A stretch of 30,734 bases of DNA, from IMG/VR virus record IMGVR_UViG_3300048590_000506, positions 1 to 30,734 of that record, one strand, 5' to 3'. The notes under the pieces were generated by a model, which searched no databases, had not been told where the DNA came from, and saw only the letters and a list, made by a program, of their open reading frames with translations. How positions within the stretch are numbered: position 1 is the stretch's first letter; each line of letters opens with the position of its first letter. This DNA is from a virus. This document shows positions 25,761-28,340 of the stretch, piece after piece. Position numbers and translations under genes: made by a program.

Positions 25761-25832
25761 TCGATAAATCCAATAAATTTGTTTGATTATTTTATAATGT
25801 GCTGAGAATCAGCGAGATTAATTTAAGAAAGG

Positions 25833-25904
25833 AGGTGGATATGTGATTCGAACACATGATGCTAATTTTGCAGATTAGAGCCTTACCTACTTGGCGAATC
25901 CACC
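25833..25904 (-). tRNA. tRNA-Cys(GCA)
   Basis: Seven-pair acceptor GGTGGAT/ATCCACC, anticodon arm CTAAT-CTGCAAA-ATTAG, T-arm ATGTG-TTCGAAT-CACAT. This is the leftmost gene of the array. Discriminator base is T. Confidence 0.95.
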
Positions 25905-25909
25905 TTATG

Positions 25910-25983
25910 TGCAGAATGTGAGGATCGAACTCACTCTTTTCCAGTTTGGAAGACTAGTGCACCACCATTTATGCGTATTCTGC
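25910..25983 (-). tRNA. tRNA-Gly(TCC)
   Basis: Acceptor GCAGAAT/ATTCTGC, anticodon arm CTAGT-CTTCCAA-ACTGG (one T-G pair), T-loop TTCGATC, discriminator A. It lies 5 nt from tRNA-Cys. Confidence 0.93.
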
Positions 25984-26002
25984 AAATTAATAATATATTA
26001 CG

Positions 26003-26073
26003 TACCCAATGATGGAATCGAACCACCTCTTTTTGCATGTAAAACAAAAGCACTTCCGTTATACTAATTGGGT
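26003..26073 (-). tRNA. tRNA-Val(TAC)
   Basis: Acceptor ACCCAAT/ATTGGGT, anticodon loop TTTACAT on a stem TTTGT/GCAAA, T-loop TTCGATT, discriminator A. Confidence 0.92.
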
Positions 26074-26077
26074 ATTG

Positions 26078-26150
26078 TGGAACCACTTGGTAACGATCCA
26101 AGATTTCTCGCTCTTCAGGCGAGCACATAGACCATCTATGTTATAGTTCC
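26078..26150 (-). tRNA. tRNA-Phe(GAA), unusual T-loop
   Basis: Acceptor GGAACTA/TGGTTCC (one T-G pair), anticodon arm CTCGC-CTGAAGA-GCGAG. The T-stem CTTGG/CCAAG is perfect, but its loop is ATCGTTA instead of TTCRANN: T54 and A58 are exchanged for A and T. Confidence 0.9.
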
Positions 26151-26154
26151 TTAG

Positions 26155-26228
26155 TAGCGAAGAAGAGAATCGAACTCTTGTCAATCAGGCTTATGAGACC
26201 TGTCGGAAAACCAACGTTCCAGCTCGCT
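26155..26228 (-). tRNA. tRNA-Met or tRNA-Ile2 (CAT)
   Basis: Anticodon arm CAGGT-CTCATAA-GCCTG, T-arm AAGAG-TTCGATT-CTCTT, acceptor AGCGAGC/CTTCGCT with an A1-T72 pair and a C7xC66 mismatch. Because position 1-72 is paired it is not initiator-like; elongator Met or lysidine-modified Ile are the options, and sequence alone does not separate them. Confidence 0.9.
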
Positions 26229-26231
26229 ATG

Positions 26232-26303
26232 TAGTAGTAACAGGACTCGAACCTATATCCTCCTTCGTATCAGGAAGTTGCTCCACCATTGAGCTATACT
26301 ACT
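26232..26303 (-). tRNA. tRNA-Ile(GAT)
   Basis: Acceptor AGTAGTA/TACTACT, anticodon loop CTGATAC on CTTC/GAAG (the fifth pair is mismatched), T-loop TTCGAGT, discriminator A. Confidence 0.9.
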
Positions 26304-26309
26304 ATAAAG

Positions 26310-26380
26310 TACCTCCAGATGGTACTGACCCATCTTCTCTAGATTAAAAGTCTAGAGCATCACCTTAATGCTTTGGAGGT
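26310..26380 (-). tRNA. tRNA-Lys(TTT), unusual T-loop
   Basis: Acceptor ACCTCCA/TGGAGGT, anticodon arm CTAGA-CTTTTAA-TCTAG. T-stem GATGG/CCATC with loop GTCAGTA, so T54 is G and A58 is G. The 5' leader GGAGGTTTAT can pair with the first six bases of the mature tRNA. Confidence 0.9.
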
Positions 26381-26435
26381 ATAAACCTCCTTCTTATCTG
26401 TTTCCATAATTTATAAGTTAATTAACCTACTTCAG

Positions 26436-26507
26436 TTGGCCCTAGCAGTACTGATCTGCTGACCTTCTCATTATGAGTGAGATGCTCTACCATTGAGCTA
26501 AGGGCCG
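26436..26507 (-). tRNA. tRNA-Met(CAT) with C1xA72 mismatch
   Basis: Acceptor bases 2-7 pair (GGCCCT with AGGGCC), C1 faces A72, D-arm GCTC-AATGGTA-GAGC, anticodon arm TCTCA-CTCATAA-TGAGA. The acceptor mismatch is of the initiator type, but the anticodon stem lacks the three G-C pairs. T-loop is ATCAGTA (T54 to A, A58 to G). Confidence 0.88.
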
Positions 26508-26511
26508 ATTT

Positions 26512-26585
26512 GAACTCCCACTGGGATTTGAACCCAGATCGATGCTTTAGAAGAGCATAGTTTTTCCAGTTAAACTACAGGAGTT
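26512..26585 (-). tRNA. tRNA-Arg(TCT)
   Basis: Acceptor AACTCCT/GGGAGTT, anticodon arm ATGCT-CTTCTAA-AGCAT, T-loop TTCAAAT. It reads AGA/AGG. Confidence 0.93.
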
Positions 26586-26621
26586 TAATATAGAAATTAC
26601 CTATGTCTTCTTAATACCATG

Positions 26622-26694
26622 AGCACTTTCACGGACTCGAACCGCGCCTCCTCTGTTTACAAGACAGTAGCATCGCCACCTATGCTTAAAGTGC
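26622..26694 (-). tRNA. tRNA-Thr(TGT)
   Basis: Acceptor GCACTTT/AAAGTGC, anticodon loop CTTGTAA on CTGT/ACAG, T-loop TTCGAGT. The spacer to its left carries a 7-bp inverted repeat CCAGTTT/AAACTGG (26700-26706, 26728-26734) on the side of tRNA-Trp. Confidence 0.92.
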
Positions 26695-26739
26695 ATAAAC
26701 CAGTTTTAATATTACACGCCAGACCGGAAACTGGACCTG

Positions 26740-26808
26740 CACACCTCCATTGAATCGAACAATGTCCTTCAGTTTTGGAGACTGTTTGGCTACCTTAGCC
26801 TGAGGTGT
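26740..26808 (-). tRNA. tRNA-Trp(CCA)
   Basis: Acceptor ACACCTC/GAGGTGT, anticodon loop CTCCAAA on CAGT/ACTG, T-arm CATTG-TTCGATT-CAATG, discriminator G. The anticodon is CCA, not UCA, so it gives no sign of UGA recoding. Confidence 0.93.
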
Positions 26809-26813
26809 ATATT

Positions 26814-26888
26814 GCGCTTGGTTTAGGATTCGAACCTAATATCATTCGGTTAACAGCCGATTGCTTGTCCATATAAGCTCTCCAAGCG
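26814..26888 (-). tRNA. tRNA-Asn(GTT)
   Basis: Acceptor CGCTTGG/CCAAGCG, anticodon loop CTGTTAA on TCGG/CCGA, T-loop TTCGAAT. Confidence 0.94.
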
Positions 26889-26892
26889 TATG

Positions 26893-26967
26893 CGGTCTAC
26901 CTCGGATTTGAACCGAGCTGTATCCTGCGTGACAGGTAGGTGGACACACCAAGCATCCCCGTAAACC
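26893..26967 (-). tRNA. tRNA-Asp(GTC)
   Basis: Acceptor GGTTTAC/GTAGACC (one T-G pair), D-stem GGAT/GTCC, anticodon loop CTGTCAC on CCTAC/GCAGG with one A-C mismatch, T-arm CTCGG-TTCAAAT-CCGAG, discriminator G. Confidence 0.87.
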
Positions 26968-26971
26968 AGTG

Positions 26972-27045
26972 TGGAGACAGGTGGGCTTCGAACCCACTTG
27001 ATCTTCTTTGCAAAAGAAGTGCATAGCCAATTCTGCCACAGCCCC
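26972..27045 (-). tRNA. tRNA-Ala(TGC), weak acceptor stem
   Basis: Anticodon arm CTTCT-TTTGCAA-AGAAG, T-arm GTGGG-TTCGAAG-CCCAC. The acceptor GGGGCTG with TGTCTCC gives G-C, G-C, G3-U70, G-C and then poor pairing; G3-U70 and A73 are alanine identity elements, which favours this alignment. One extra base then lies after the T-stem. Confidence 0.85.
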
Positions 27046-27051
27046 ATAAAA

Positions 27052-27081
27052 CAAAAAAGGCCCCATTTTCGGTGGAGCCTT
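27052..27081 (-). terminator. Terminator inside tRNA array
   Basis: On the minus strand AAGGC-t-CCA pairs with TGG-g-GCCTT around a 7-nt loop, followed by TTTTTTGTTTT. It lies between tRNA-Glu and tRNA-Ala, 6 nt before the Ala 5' end, so it splits the array into at least two transcripts or tunes gene dosage within it. Confidence 0.75.
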
Positions 27082-27103
27082 AATCTATTTGATTATTCTT
27101 AAA

Positions 27104-27190
27104 TTAGCTCCAATATAATATTCCCACCTTACCACAATTTCTTGTAGCAAACGCGGTATCTATAATATTAAACCAATTATTCATCATCAT
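27104..27190 (-). CDS. Possible 28-aa microprotein within tRNA array
   Basis: The largest spacer in the array (27082-27205) contains an open frame MMMNNWFNIIDTAFATRNCG ending KVGILYWS, followed after 23 nt by the terminator at 27052-27081. That order (frame, then terminator) is what a small gene would show. No promoter or ribosome site is evident and chance is a fair alternative. Confidence 0.25.
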   Translation of the reverse strand: MMMNNWFNIIDTAFATRNCGKVGILYWS

Positions 27191-27205
27191 GTTATTGTTT
27201 TAAAG

Positions 27206-27278
27206 TACTCCTGACGAGACTCGAACTCGTTCCTTAACCTTGAAAGGGTTACGCCTCAACCTGTTTGGCCTCAGGAGC
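27206..27278 (-). tRNA. tRNA-Glu(TTC)
   Basis: Acceptor GCTCCTG/CAGGAGT (G1-T72), anticodon loop CTTTCAA on AACC/GGTT, T-arm ACGAG-TTCGAGT-CTCGT, discriminator A. It is the first tRNA after the promoter at 27336-27366. The 5' leader contains AGGAG, complementary to the tRNA's own CTCCT. Confidence 0.92.
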
Positions 27279-27329
27279 ATAAATCTCCTCAGCTTCAGTT
27301 TTGTCTTCTATCAGGGTATTTGTTTTCAT
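27249..27329 (-). CDS. Possible 26-aa leaderless ORF overlapping tRNA-Glu
   Basis: The ATG at 27329 lies 6 nt after a perfect -7 element and opens MKTNTLIEDKTEAEEIYAPE, ending KQVEA inside tRNA-Glu. The Glu/Lys-rich peptide is not recognised. Overlap with a tRNA argues against a conserved protein; it may be a chance frame, or a short leader peptide on the tRNA transcript. Confidence 0.25.
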   Translation of the reverse strand: MKTNTLIEDKTEAEEIYAPEAKQVEA

Positions 27330-27335
27330 AAGTTG

Positions 27336-27366
27336 CAAATATAAATACAATATTTGAATTGTGCAA
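27336..27366 (-). promoter_or_regulatory. Promoter driving tRNA-Glu
   Basis: TTG (27366-27364), 20 nt, then TATATTTG (27343-27336) on the minus strand: a full Bacteroidota consensus in the AT-rich spacer between tRNA-Tyr and tRNA-Glu. Confidence 0.8.
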
Positions 27367-27386
27367 GTTTTTTCTCAAATATTTTT

Positions 27387-27473
27387 GTCTCTAGGGTAGG
27401 ATTCGAACCTACTGTGTTTCATAGTGCTAGTTTTACAGACTAGTGTACTTCCCCCATCAGTACAGCCTAGAGA
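27387..27473 (-). tRNA. tRNA-Tyr(GTA)
   Basis: Class II tRNA with acceptor TCTCTAG/CTAGAGA, anticodon arm CTAGT-CTGTAAA-ACTAG, a variable arm of about 15 nt and T-loop TTCGAAT, as expected for bacterial-type Tyr. Confidence 0.93.
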
Positions 27474-27477
27474 TATG

Positions 27478-27561
27478 CAGAGAGCAGTGGCCCTGATCCA
27501 CACTCAGTTTCCTGAGCCATCATCTTAGCAGGATGTGCCCACCCTAGTAGGTTTACTCTCT
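27478..27561 (-). tRNA. tRNA-Ser(GCT), unusual T-loop
   Basis: Class II. Acceptor AGAGAGT/GCTCTCT, anticodon loop CTGCTAA on CATC/GATG, variable arm CTCAG-GAAA-CTGAG, discriminator G as in serine tRNAs. T-stem GTGG/CCAC has loop ATCAGGG, lacking T54 and A58. Confidence 0.9.
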
Positions 27562-27567
27562 ATATTG

Positions 27568-27657
27568 CGGAGAACTGAGGACCCGACCCCCATCCGTTGT
27601 AAACGAAACCTTGTTTTCAAGACAAGTCGCCACTCCAATGTAGCTGCTTAATTCTCC
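27568..27657 (-). tRNA. tRNA-Ser(TGA), unusual T-loop
   Basis: Class II. Acceptor GGAGAAT/GTTCTCC, anticodon arm CTTGT-CTTGAAA-ACAAG, long variable arm, discriminator G. T-stem TGGGG/CCTCA has loop GTCGGGT, lacking T54 and A58. Confidence 0.9.
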
Positions 27658-27662
27658 TTTAT

Positions 27663-27755
27663 GTGCGCCCAATAGGAGTCGAACCTATAATGTGATCATT
27701 AATCCGTAACAGATTTTAAGTCTGTCGTGTCTCAGCCATTTTCACCATGAGCGCA
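27663..27755 (-). tRNA. tRNA-Leu(TAA)
   Basis: Class II. Acceptor TGCGCTC/GGGCGCA, anticodon loop CTTAAAA on CAGA/TCTG, a long variable region and T-loop TTCGACT. Discriminator is C rather than the usual leucine A. Confidence 0.9.
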
Positions 27756-27758
27756 AAG

Positions 27759-27838
27759 TACCCCTGAGTGGATTCGAACCACTAAAAACCCAGAGTCTAA
27801 ATCTGGTAGCTGTGCCAGTTTGCATATGTCACAGGGGC
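27759..27838 (-). tRNA. tRNA-Leu(TAG) with short variable loop
   Basis: Acceptor GCCCCTG/CAGGGGT with A73, anticodon arm CCAGA-TTTAGAC-TCTGG, T-arm AGTGG-TTCGAAT-CCACT. Only GTTTTT lies between the anticodon stem and T-stem, so the long arm of leucine tRNAs is missing; the D-region is enlarged (25 nt between acceptor and anticodon stem). The anticodon UAG reads CUA and is not an amber suppressor. Confidence 0.88.
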
Positions 27839-27843
27839 ATTAT

Positions 27844-27916
27844 GAACCAAGTACCTGATTCGAACAGGTGTCTGTGATTTCGTAGATCACTATTCTTCCG
27901 CTGAACTAACCTGGTT
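27844..27916 (-). tRNA. tRNA-Arg(ACG)
   Basis: Acceptor AACCAGG/CTTGGTT, anticodon arm GTGAT-CTACGAA-ATCAC, T-loop TTCGAAT. A34 would need host TadA editing to inosine to read CGN codons. Confidence 0.93.
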
Positions 27917-27943
27917 TATATATACTTAAGTTATTTATTTTTG

Positions 27944-28016
27944 GGTGAAAGGAAAGAATCGAACTTTCATCTCCTGATTCACAGTCAGGTATTCTAACCG
28001 TTAAAATACAATCACC
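27944..28016 (-). tRNA. tRNA-His(GTG)
   Basis: Anticodon loop CTGTGAA on CTGA/TCAG, T-arm GAAAG-TTCGATT-CTTTC. An extra G precedes base 1 and faces C73, the G-1 rule of histidine tRNAs. Two T-T mismatches weaken the lower acceptor stem. Confidence 0.9.
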
Positions 28017-28021
28017 ATATG

Positions 28022-28094
28022 ATGCAGGGGTATGATTCGAACATACATCCTACAGATTCAAAGTCTGAGGTAATAACCTTTATACTACTCTGCA
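28022..28094 (-). tRNA. tRNA-Gln(TTG)
   Basis: Acceptor TGCAGAG/CCCTGCA (one A-C mismatch), anticodon loop CTTTGAA on CAGA/TCTG, T-loop TTCGAAT. The anticodon is UUG, so it does not indicate UAG reassignment to Gln. Confidence 0.92.
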
Positions 28095-28098
28095 ATGT

Positions 28099-28193
28099 CA
28101 GGATTGAGGGATTCGAACCCCCGGAGGACACTACCTGTGTGCCCTCATATGATTCCAAGTCATATAGCTTCAACCAAACTCGCCCAAATCCTG
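28099..28193 (-). tRNA. tRNA with UGG (Pro) anticodon on a class II body
   Basis: Acceptor CAGGATT/AATCCTG, A73, T-arm GGGGG-TTCGAAT-CCCTC. A six-pair anticodon stem ATATGA/TCATAT holds the loop CTTGGAA, so bases 34-36 are UGG, a proline anticodon. Between anticodon and T-stem lies a long variable arm: GAGG-g-CAC pairs with GTG-t-CCTC around a 7-nt loop. The D-arm (GGGCGAG-TTTGGTTGAAGC) also resembles serine tRNAs. It is the only Pro-anticodon tRNA found. A37 is unusual for proline tRNAs, which have G37. Confidence 0.85.
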
Positions 28194-28195
28194 TA

Positions 28196-28234
28196 AAATA
28201 AAAAAGCCTCTTTGATACTATCTCTGAGGCTTTT
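28196..28234 (-). terminator. Terminator between 66-aa gene and tRNA array
   Basis: A perfect 9-bp stem AAAAGCCTC/GAGGCTTTT with a 15-nt loop, followed on the minus strand by TTTTTTATTTT. It ends transcripts from the 66-aa gene just before the first array tRNA. A short T-run on the other side could give weak plus-strand activity. Confidence 0.85.
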
Positions 28235-28340
28235 GTCCAATAACAAATATTATTATTACCAATCAAACATAGCCCCAGAACCCAACAACGAGAGTTGCTG
28301 ATAAGGTCGTGAACTATGTAATGATAGATTTTTCATTTAA

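Follow-up and report, generated by a model that had tools for sequence, protein, structure and literature searches.

A long-armed tRNA gene in a phage tRNA array

The window, by which we mean the whole stretch of 30,734 nucleotides analysed here, is a 30.7-kb virus record with phage structural genes, to which we assign portal, terminase and tail roles, and is a fragment of a crAss-like phage. Its tRNA array finds its best database match in the crAss-like phage cr111_1, and relatives of its terminase occur in other IMG/VR contigs at about 44–79% identity. At the 5' end of the array lies a gene that ARAGORN calls as tRNA-Pro(TGG) at 28097–28193 on the minus strand (Table 1). It folds into a cloverleaf with a 7-bp acceptor stem, a 6-bp anticodon stem that includes a 26:44 pair, a 5-bp T stem and a single unpaired base, C48, between the variable arm and the T stem; the acceptor branch is of the ordinary 7 + 5 bp kind and the CCA end is not encoded. 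To our knowledge, long variable arms are found in bacteria only on Leu, Ser, Tyr and Sec tRNAs. The preliminary description, which placed the gene at 28099–28193, had located it correctly and left off the discriminator A73 at 28098; its reading of a class II body with a UGG anticodon and a serine-like core is borne out by ARAGORN, Rfam, the family model and the core classifier described below.

Table 1 Features of the class II tRNA-Pro(UGG) gene and of the array that contains it
Feature	Positions	Strand	Basis
Phage tRNA array, class II Pro tRNA as 5'-most gene	25831–28193	−	tRNA calls; gene order common to L004, L026 and L030
Class II tRNA-Pro(UGG), whole gene including A73	28098–28193	−	ARAGORN; Rfam RF00005, 51.5 bits (gathering cut-off 29); family model, 102 bits
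Acceptor stem, 5' side (C1 = 28193)	28187–28193	−	Sequence and fold
D arm: 3-bp stem, G15, Ser-like GAG...GG...GAAG loop	28166–28184	−	Sequence and fold
Anticodon UGG (loop CUUGGAA, CTTGGAA in the gene, 28153–28159)	28155–28157	−	Sequence, ARAGORN, conserved stem pairs
Long variable arm, 8 bp and 7-nt loop (23 nt)	28124–28146	−	Compensatory (two-sided) changes at 7/8 pairs, 23 divergent members
T arm (C48 = 28123)	28106–28122	−	Sequence and fold
Acceptor stem, 3' side (G72 = 28099, discriminator A73 = 28098)	28098–28105	−	Sequence and fold; C1:G72 and A73 in 31/33 members

That the gene is a pseudogene, or that its anticodon has been misplaced, is highly improbable. Weak-scoring genes do occur in the same array, such as a nearby Leu-UAG at 22.6 bits, but every stem of the Pro tRNA is whole, its stems covary across 23 divergent members of the family described below, and a covariance model built from that family, the window tRNA included, finds it with 102 bits at exactly 28098–28193 while giving the other window tRNAs at most 35 bits. 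Decay is ruled out by this score, the intact stems and the conservation of the family. A one-base shift of the anticodon to GGA, an outcome for which the preliminary description had allowed, is excluded because, across the 23 divergent members, 97.8% of the cells of the anticodon stem and 94.6% of those of the variable arm are paired; the family model and the conserved stem pairs keep the anticodon at UGG.

As claimed, no other Pro tRNA is present in the 30.7-kb window or in a 42-kb contig that overlaps it and comes from the same phage, each of them only a fragment. Two serine tRNAs of the array were missed by ARAGORN and Rfam and were read by eye, namely Ser-GCU (about 27489–27553) and Ser-UGA (about 27565–27650, minus strand), the latter with an unusual T loop; both are supported by an identical tRNA order in L026 and L030. 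Immediately upstream of the Ala tRNA, and on its strand, lies a terminator-like hairpin with a T run (27057–27081, minus strand); a second one, read by eye (about 28200–28240, minus strand), is placed in the same way immediately upstream of the Pro tRNA.

A phage-borne family of class II Pro(UGG) tRNAs

The preliminary description had proposed searching related phages for the same body. Four pattern scans of IMG/VR, followed by ARAGORN, recovered at least 33 distinct class II UGG tRNAs, the window tRNA included, from varied phage contigs of up to 306 kb. The scan patterns hardly constrained the acceptor stem and the variable arm, but they prescribed the anticodon loop and a portion of the T arm, and the conservation of these two regions is thus partly by design. 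Class II Pro(UGG) tRNAs form a phage-borne family. A scan of 1,191 bacterial genomes from three phyla (those of L195, L228 and L183) gave four matches, none of which reads as a class II Pro tRNA, and a reversed control pattern gave two. Among the matches listed, none on a cellular genome contig was a class II Pro tRNA, the L243 match being in our reading an intron-bearing archaeal Pro tRNA, and none was a class II family member with G37. For phage isolates, blastn of seven members against 50,697 phage records returned nothing beyond partial matches, chiefly to T arms and to segments of Ser, Leu or Met tRNAs. Among the open-access full texts searched we found no description of a class II tRNA-Pro, a negative that does not establish that none has been published; a review devoted to non-canonical tRNAs speaks of neither proline nor phages.

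Proline and serine features of the tRNA body

The published proline determinants of E. coli are G72, G35, G36, A73 and G15:C48 (PMC9976931), and the C1:G72 pair is recognised by bacterial ProRS and by its editing partner (PMC10164551). The window tRNA carries C1:G72, A73, G15 and C48 together with an NGG anticodon, and it lacks the short class I variable loop of a bacterial tRNA-Pro. Across the family, A73 is present in 33/33 members and C1:G72 in all except L356 and L397, yet positions 2–7 of the acceptor form 24 different stems. In raw counts that ignore kinship, the combination of C1:G72 and A73 is found in 31/33 family members; of the other tRNAs in the set, 100/118 ordinary Pro tRNAs have it and 0/174 Ser tRNAs do.

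A simple position classifier assigned the acceptor stem to Pro in 33/40 cases and scored it higher as Pro than as Ser in all 40, and it assigned the core to Ser in 26/40, the window tRNA among them. Since the classifier places the acceptor stem with Pro and the core with Ser, the window tRNA is, at the level of its sequence, an anatomical chimera, with proline ends on a serine-type core. A synthetase of the ProRS/SerRS class (PF00587) had no match in 36 phage contigs, which are partial, and was found in 14/14 control genomes.

Meaning of CCN codons

When window proteins were aligned to their relatives, a comparison blind to low-level misincorporation, CCN codons filled 83 of 85 proline-conserved columns and appeared in 0/83 serine-conserved columns and in one of about 177 leucine-conserved columns. 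The alignments indicate that CCN means proline in the window phage, and the column counts reject recoding to Ser or Leu for the conserved proteins. The preliminary description, which had suggested this comparison, had raised the prospect of Ser or Leu at CCN; that idea finds no support, and the description had overlooked C1:G72, a pair that Ser and Leu tRNAs hardly ever carry.

Synteny, co-occurrence and origin

The tRNA order of the window recurs in L004, L026 and L030, where the first slot is held by a class I Pro(UGG). The window tRNA comes closest to class II Pro tRNAs from other phages, at 79% at best, rather than to the syntenic class I copies, at 45–54%. The simplest account is that a horizontally moved tRNA replaced the class I Pro in the window array, and such a tRNA would therefore do the same job as class I Pro(UGG). 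It is not a mere replacement throughout the family, because an ordinary class I Pro(UGG) accompanies the class II tRNA in 20/35 loci. Minimal arrays of four tRNAs (L065, L368 and L391) consist of class I Pro-UGG, Asp-GUC, Tyr-GUA and class II Pro-UGG; two Pro(UGG) genes in an array of four tRNAs argue against simple redundancy. On descent from Ser or from Pro the signals point two ways: a body tree (FastTree), weighted heavily by acceptor positions, groups 27 of 32 members with one Ser tRNA and sets the family beside class I Pro, whereas the core looks Ser-like.

Discussion

Judged from the sequence, the window tRNA is most likely functional and departs from an anatomical rule for tRNAs while leaving the genetic code unchanged. 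The class II tRNA takes the array slot in which relatives keep a class I tRNA-Pro(UGG). In the mechanism that we propose and consider very probable, the host prolyl-tRNA synthetase would add proline by way of C1:G72, A73, G35/G36 and G15:C48, and the charged tRNA would decode CCN as proline. Charging by ProRS, one of the options in the preliminary description, is favoured by C1:G72, A73, the presence of CCN at proline columns and the class I Pro(UGG) in the slot of relatives; that no PF00587 synthetase turned up in the partial phage contigs favours the host's enzyme. Against it stands the arm geometry, which is that of tRNA-Ser, with a stem that begins at position 45, directly after position 44, and ends one base before the T stem.

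This geometry and the Ser-type core are what would commend charging by SerRS through the long arm, with Ser inserted at some CCN codons as recoding or as deliberate low-level mistranslation; SerRS ignores the anticodon, and yeast tRNA-Ser variants that carry a UGG anticodon still receive serine (PMC9976931). We nevertheless regard this as unlikely, given an acceptor end that none of the Ser tRNAs shares, the absence of G73 with a Ser-type acceptor end, the many class II members that adjoin a normal Pro(UGG), and the use of CCN for proline in conserved proteins, although low-level mistranslation would be invisible to alignment. Charging by LeuRS through A73, with Leu at CCN, is scarcely credible: A73 and a long arm would suit it, but A73, which had been taken as a leucine sign, is usual for Pro too, and it is the only feature shared, as the window tRNA has G15 and C48 whereas A15 is found in 112/117 long-arm Leu tRNAs and U48 in 224/228 Leu tRNAs; the near absence of CCN from leucine columns also speaks against it. 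A further alternative concerns A37, which makes m1G37 impossible and might promote +1 frameshifting at proline codons. The absence of m1G37 raises frameshifting (PMC9976931), and A37 is found in nearly all family members, partly as a product of the search patterns. This alternative is quite unlikely, since A37 also occurs in 31/104 ordinary class I Pro tRNAs of the same set and frameshifting leaves the variable arm unexplained; the same count removes A37 as a sign of non-proline origin, as which it had been offered.

Returning to a tRNA charged by ProRS, we infer prolylation itself, the horizontal spread of the tRNA and a benefit of its long arm. For that benefit the leading guess, which on our analysis is a tentative one, is evasion of defence, in that the long-armed body and A37 loop may let the tRNA elude a host defence that cleaves tRNAs and is directed at normal tRNA-Pro. 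It is possible, if doubtful, that the class II Pro tRNAs are a phage-only lineage kept beside normal tRNA-Pro since their changed shape escapes such a defence. Evasion of a tRNA-Pro-directed nuclease would fit the co-occurrence with class I Pro and the role proposed for phage tRNAs. The defence-evading phage tRNAs proposed earlier (PMC10264068; PMC11555353) are similarly phage-borne isoacceptors that duplicate host tRNAs and lie in arrays, but they are described with anticodon-loop changes, and the paper that proposes them mentions neither proline nor variable loops.

With bacterial class I tRNA-Pro(UGG) the window tRNA shares the UGG anticodon, C1:G72, A73, C48 and, in relatives, the array slot, and differs in having a long base-paired variable arm, a D arm like that of Ser, A37 and a 26:44 pair, a pairing frequent among class II tRNAs and seldom seen in class I Pro. 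With bacterial class II tRNA-Ser it shares the placement of the arm, the D-loop pattern and the 26:44 pairing; those tRNAs mostly have G1:C72 with G73 or U73, however, in place of its C1:G72, A73 and proline anticodon. Allo-tRNAs and selC*-tRNA-Cys (Mukai et al. 2017, via PMC7609411) also bear a long arm outside the usual isotypes, but they have a Sec-like lengthened acceptor stem, whereas the window tRNA has neither a lengthened nor an 8/4 or 9/3 acceptor branch.

The restriction of long arms to Leu, Ser, Tyr and Sec underlies isotype annotation as well as ideas on how SerRS chooses its substrates. A tRNA-Pro that is natural and widespread and bears a Ser-type arm can be used directly to test how SerRS is excluded and ProRS admitted, and it may be a pointer to a hitherto unknown defence directed at tRNAs. 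Exceptions to the arm rule are frequent in phage arrays, which makes the class II Pro tRNA less singular and widens its reach; the warning is that the class of a tRNA should not be taken as constant there.

Other phage tRNAs of unusual anatomy

The Leu-UAG tRNA of the window (27759–27829, minus strand) has a short variable loop of class I size, the mirror image of the class II Pro tRNA. Short-loop Leu-UAG tRNAs are also present in L001, L004, L026, L116 and others, and account for 35 of the 68 distinct Leu-UAG tRNAs in the phage loci examined. A long variable region, in which a recurrent AGATTA/AGATAA motif lies in a small hairpin, marks Ile-UAU tRNAs of L075, L086, L150, L321, L362, L424, L429, L443 and L463. 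Ser-like bodies or long paired arms are combined with non-Ser anticodons in L434, L452 and L076 (all Cys-GCA), in L089 (Gly-UCC) and in L357 (Glu-UUC).
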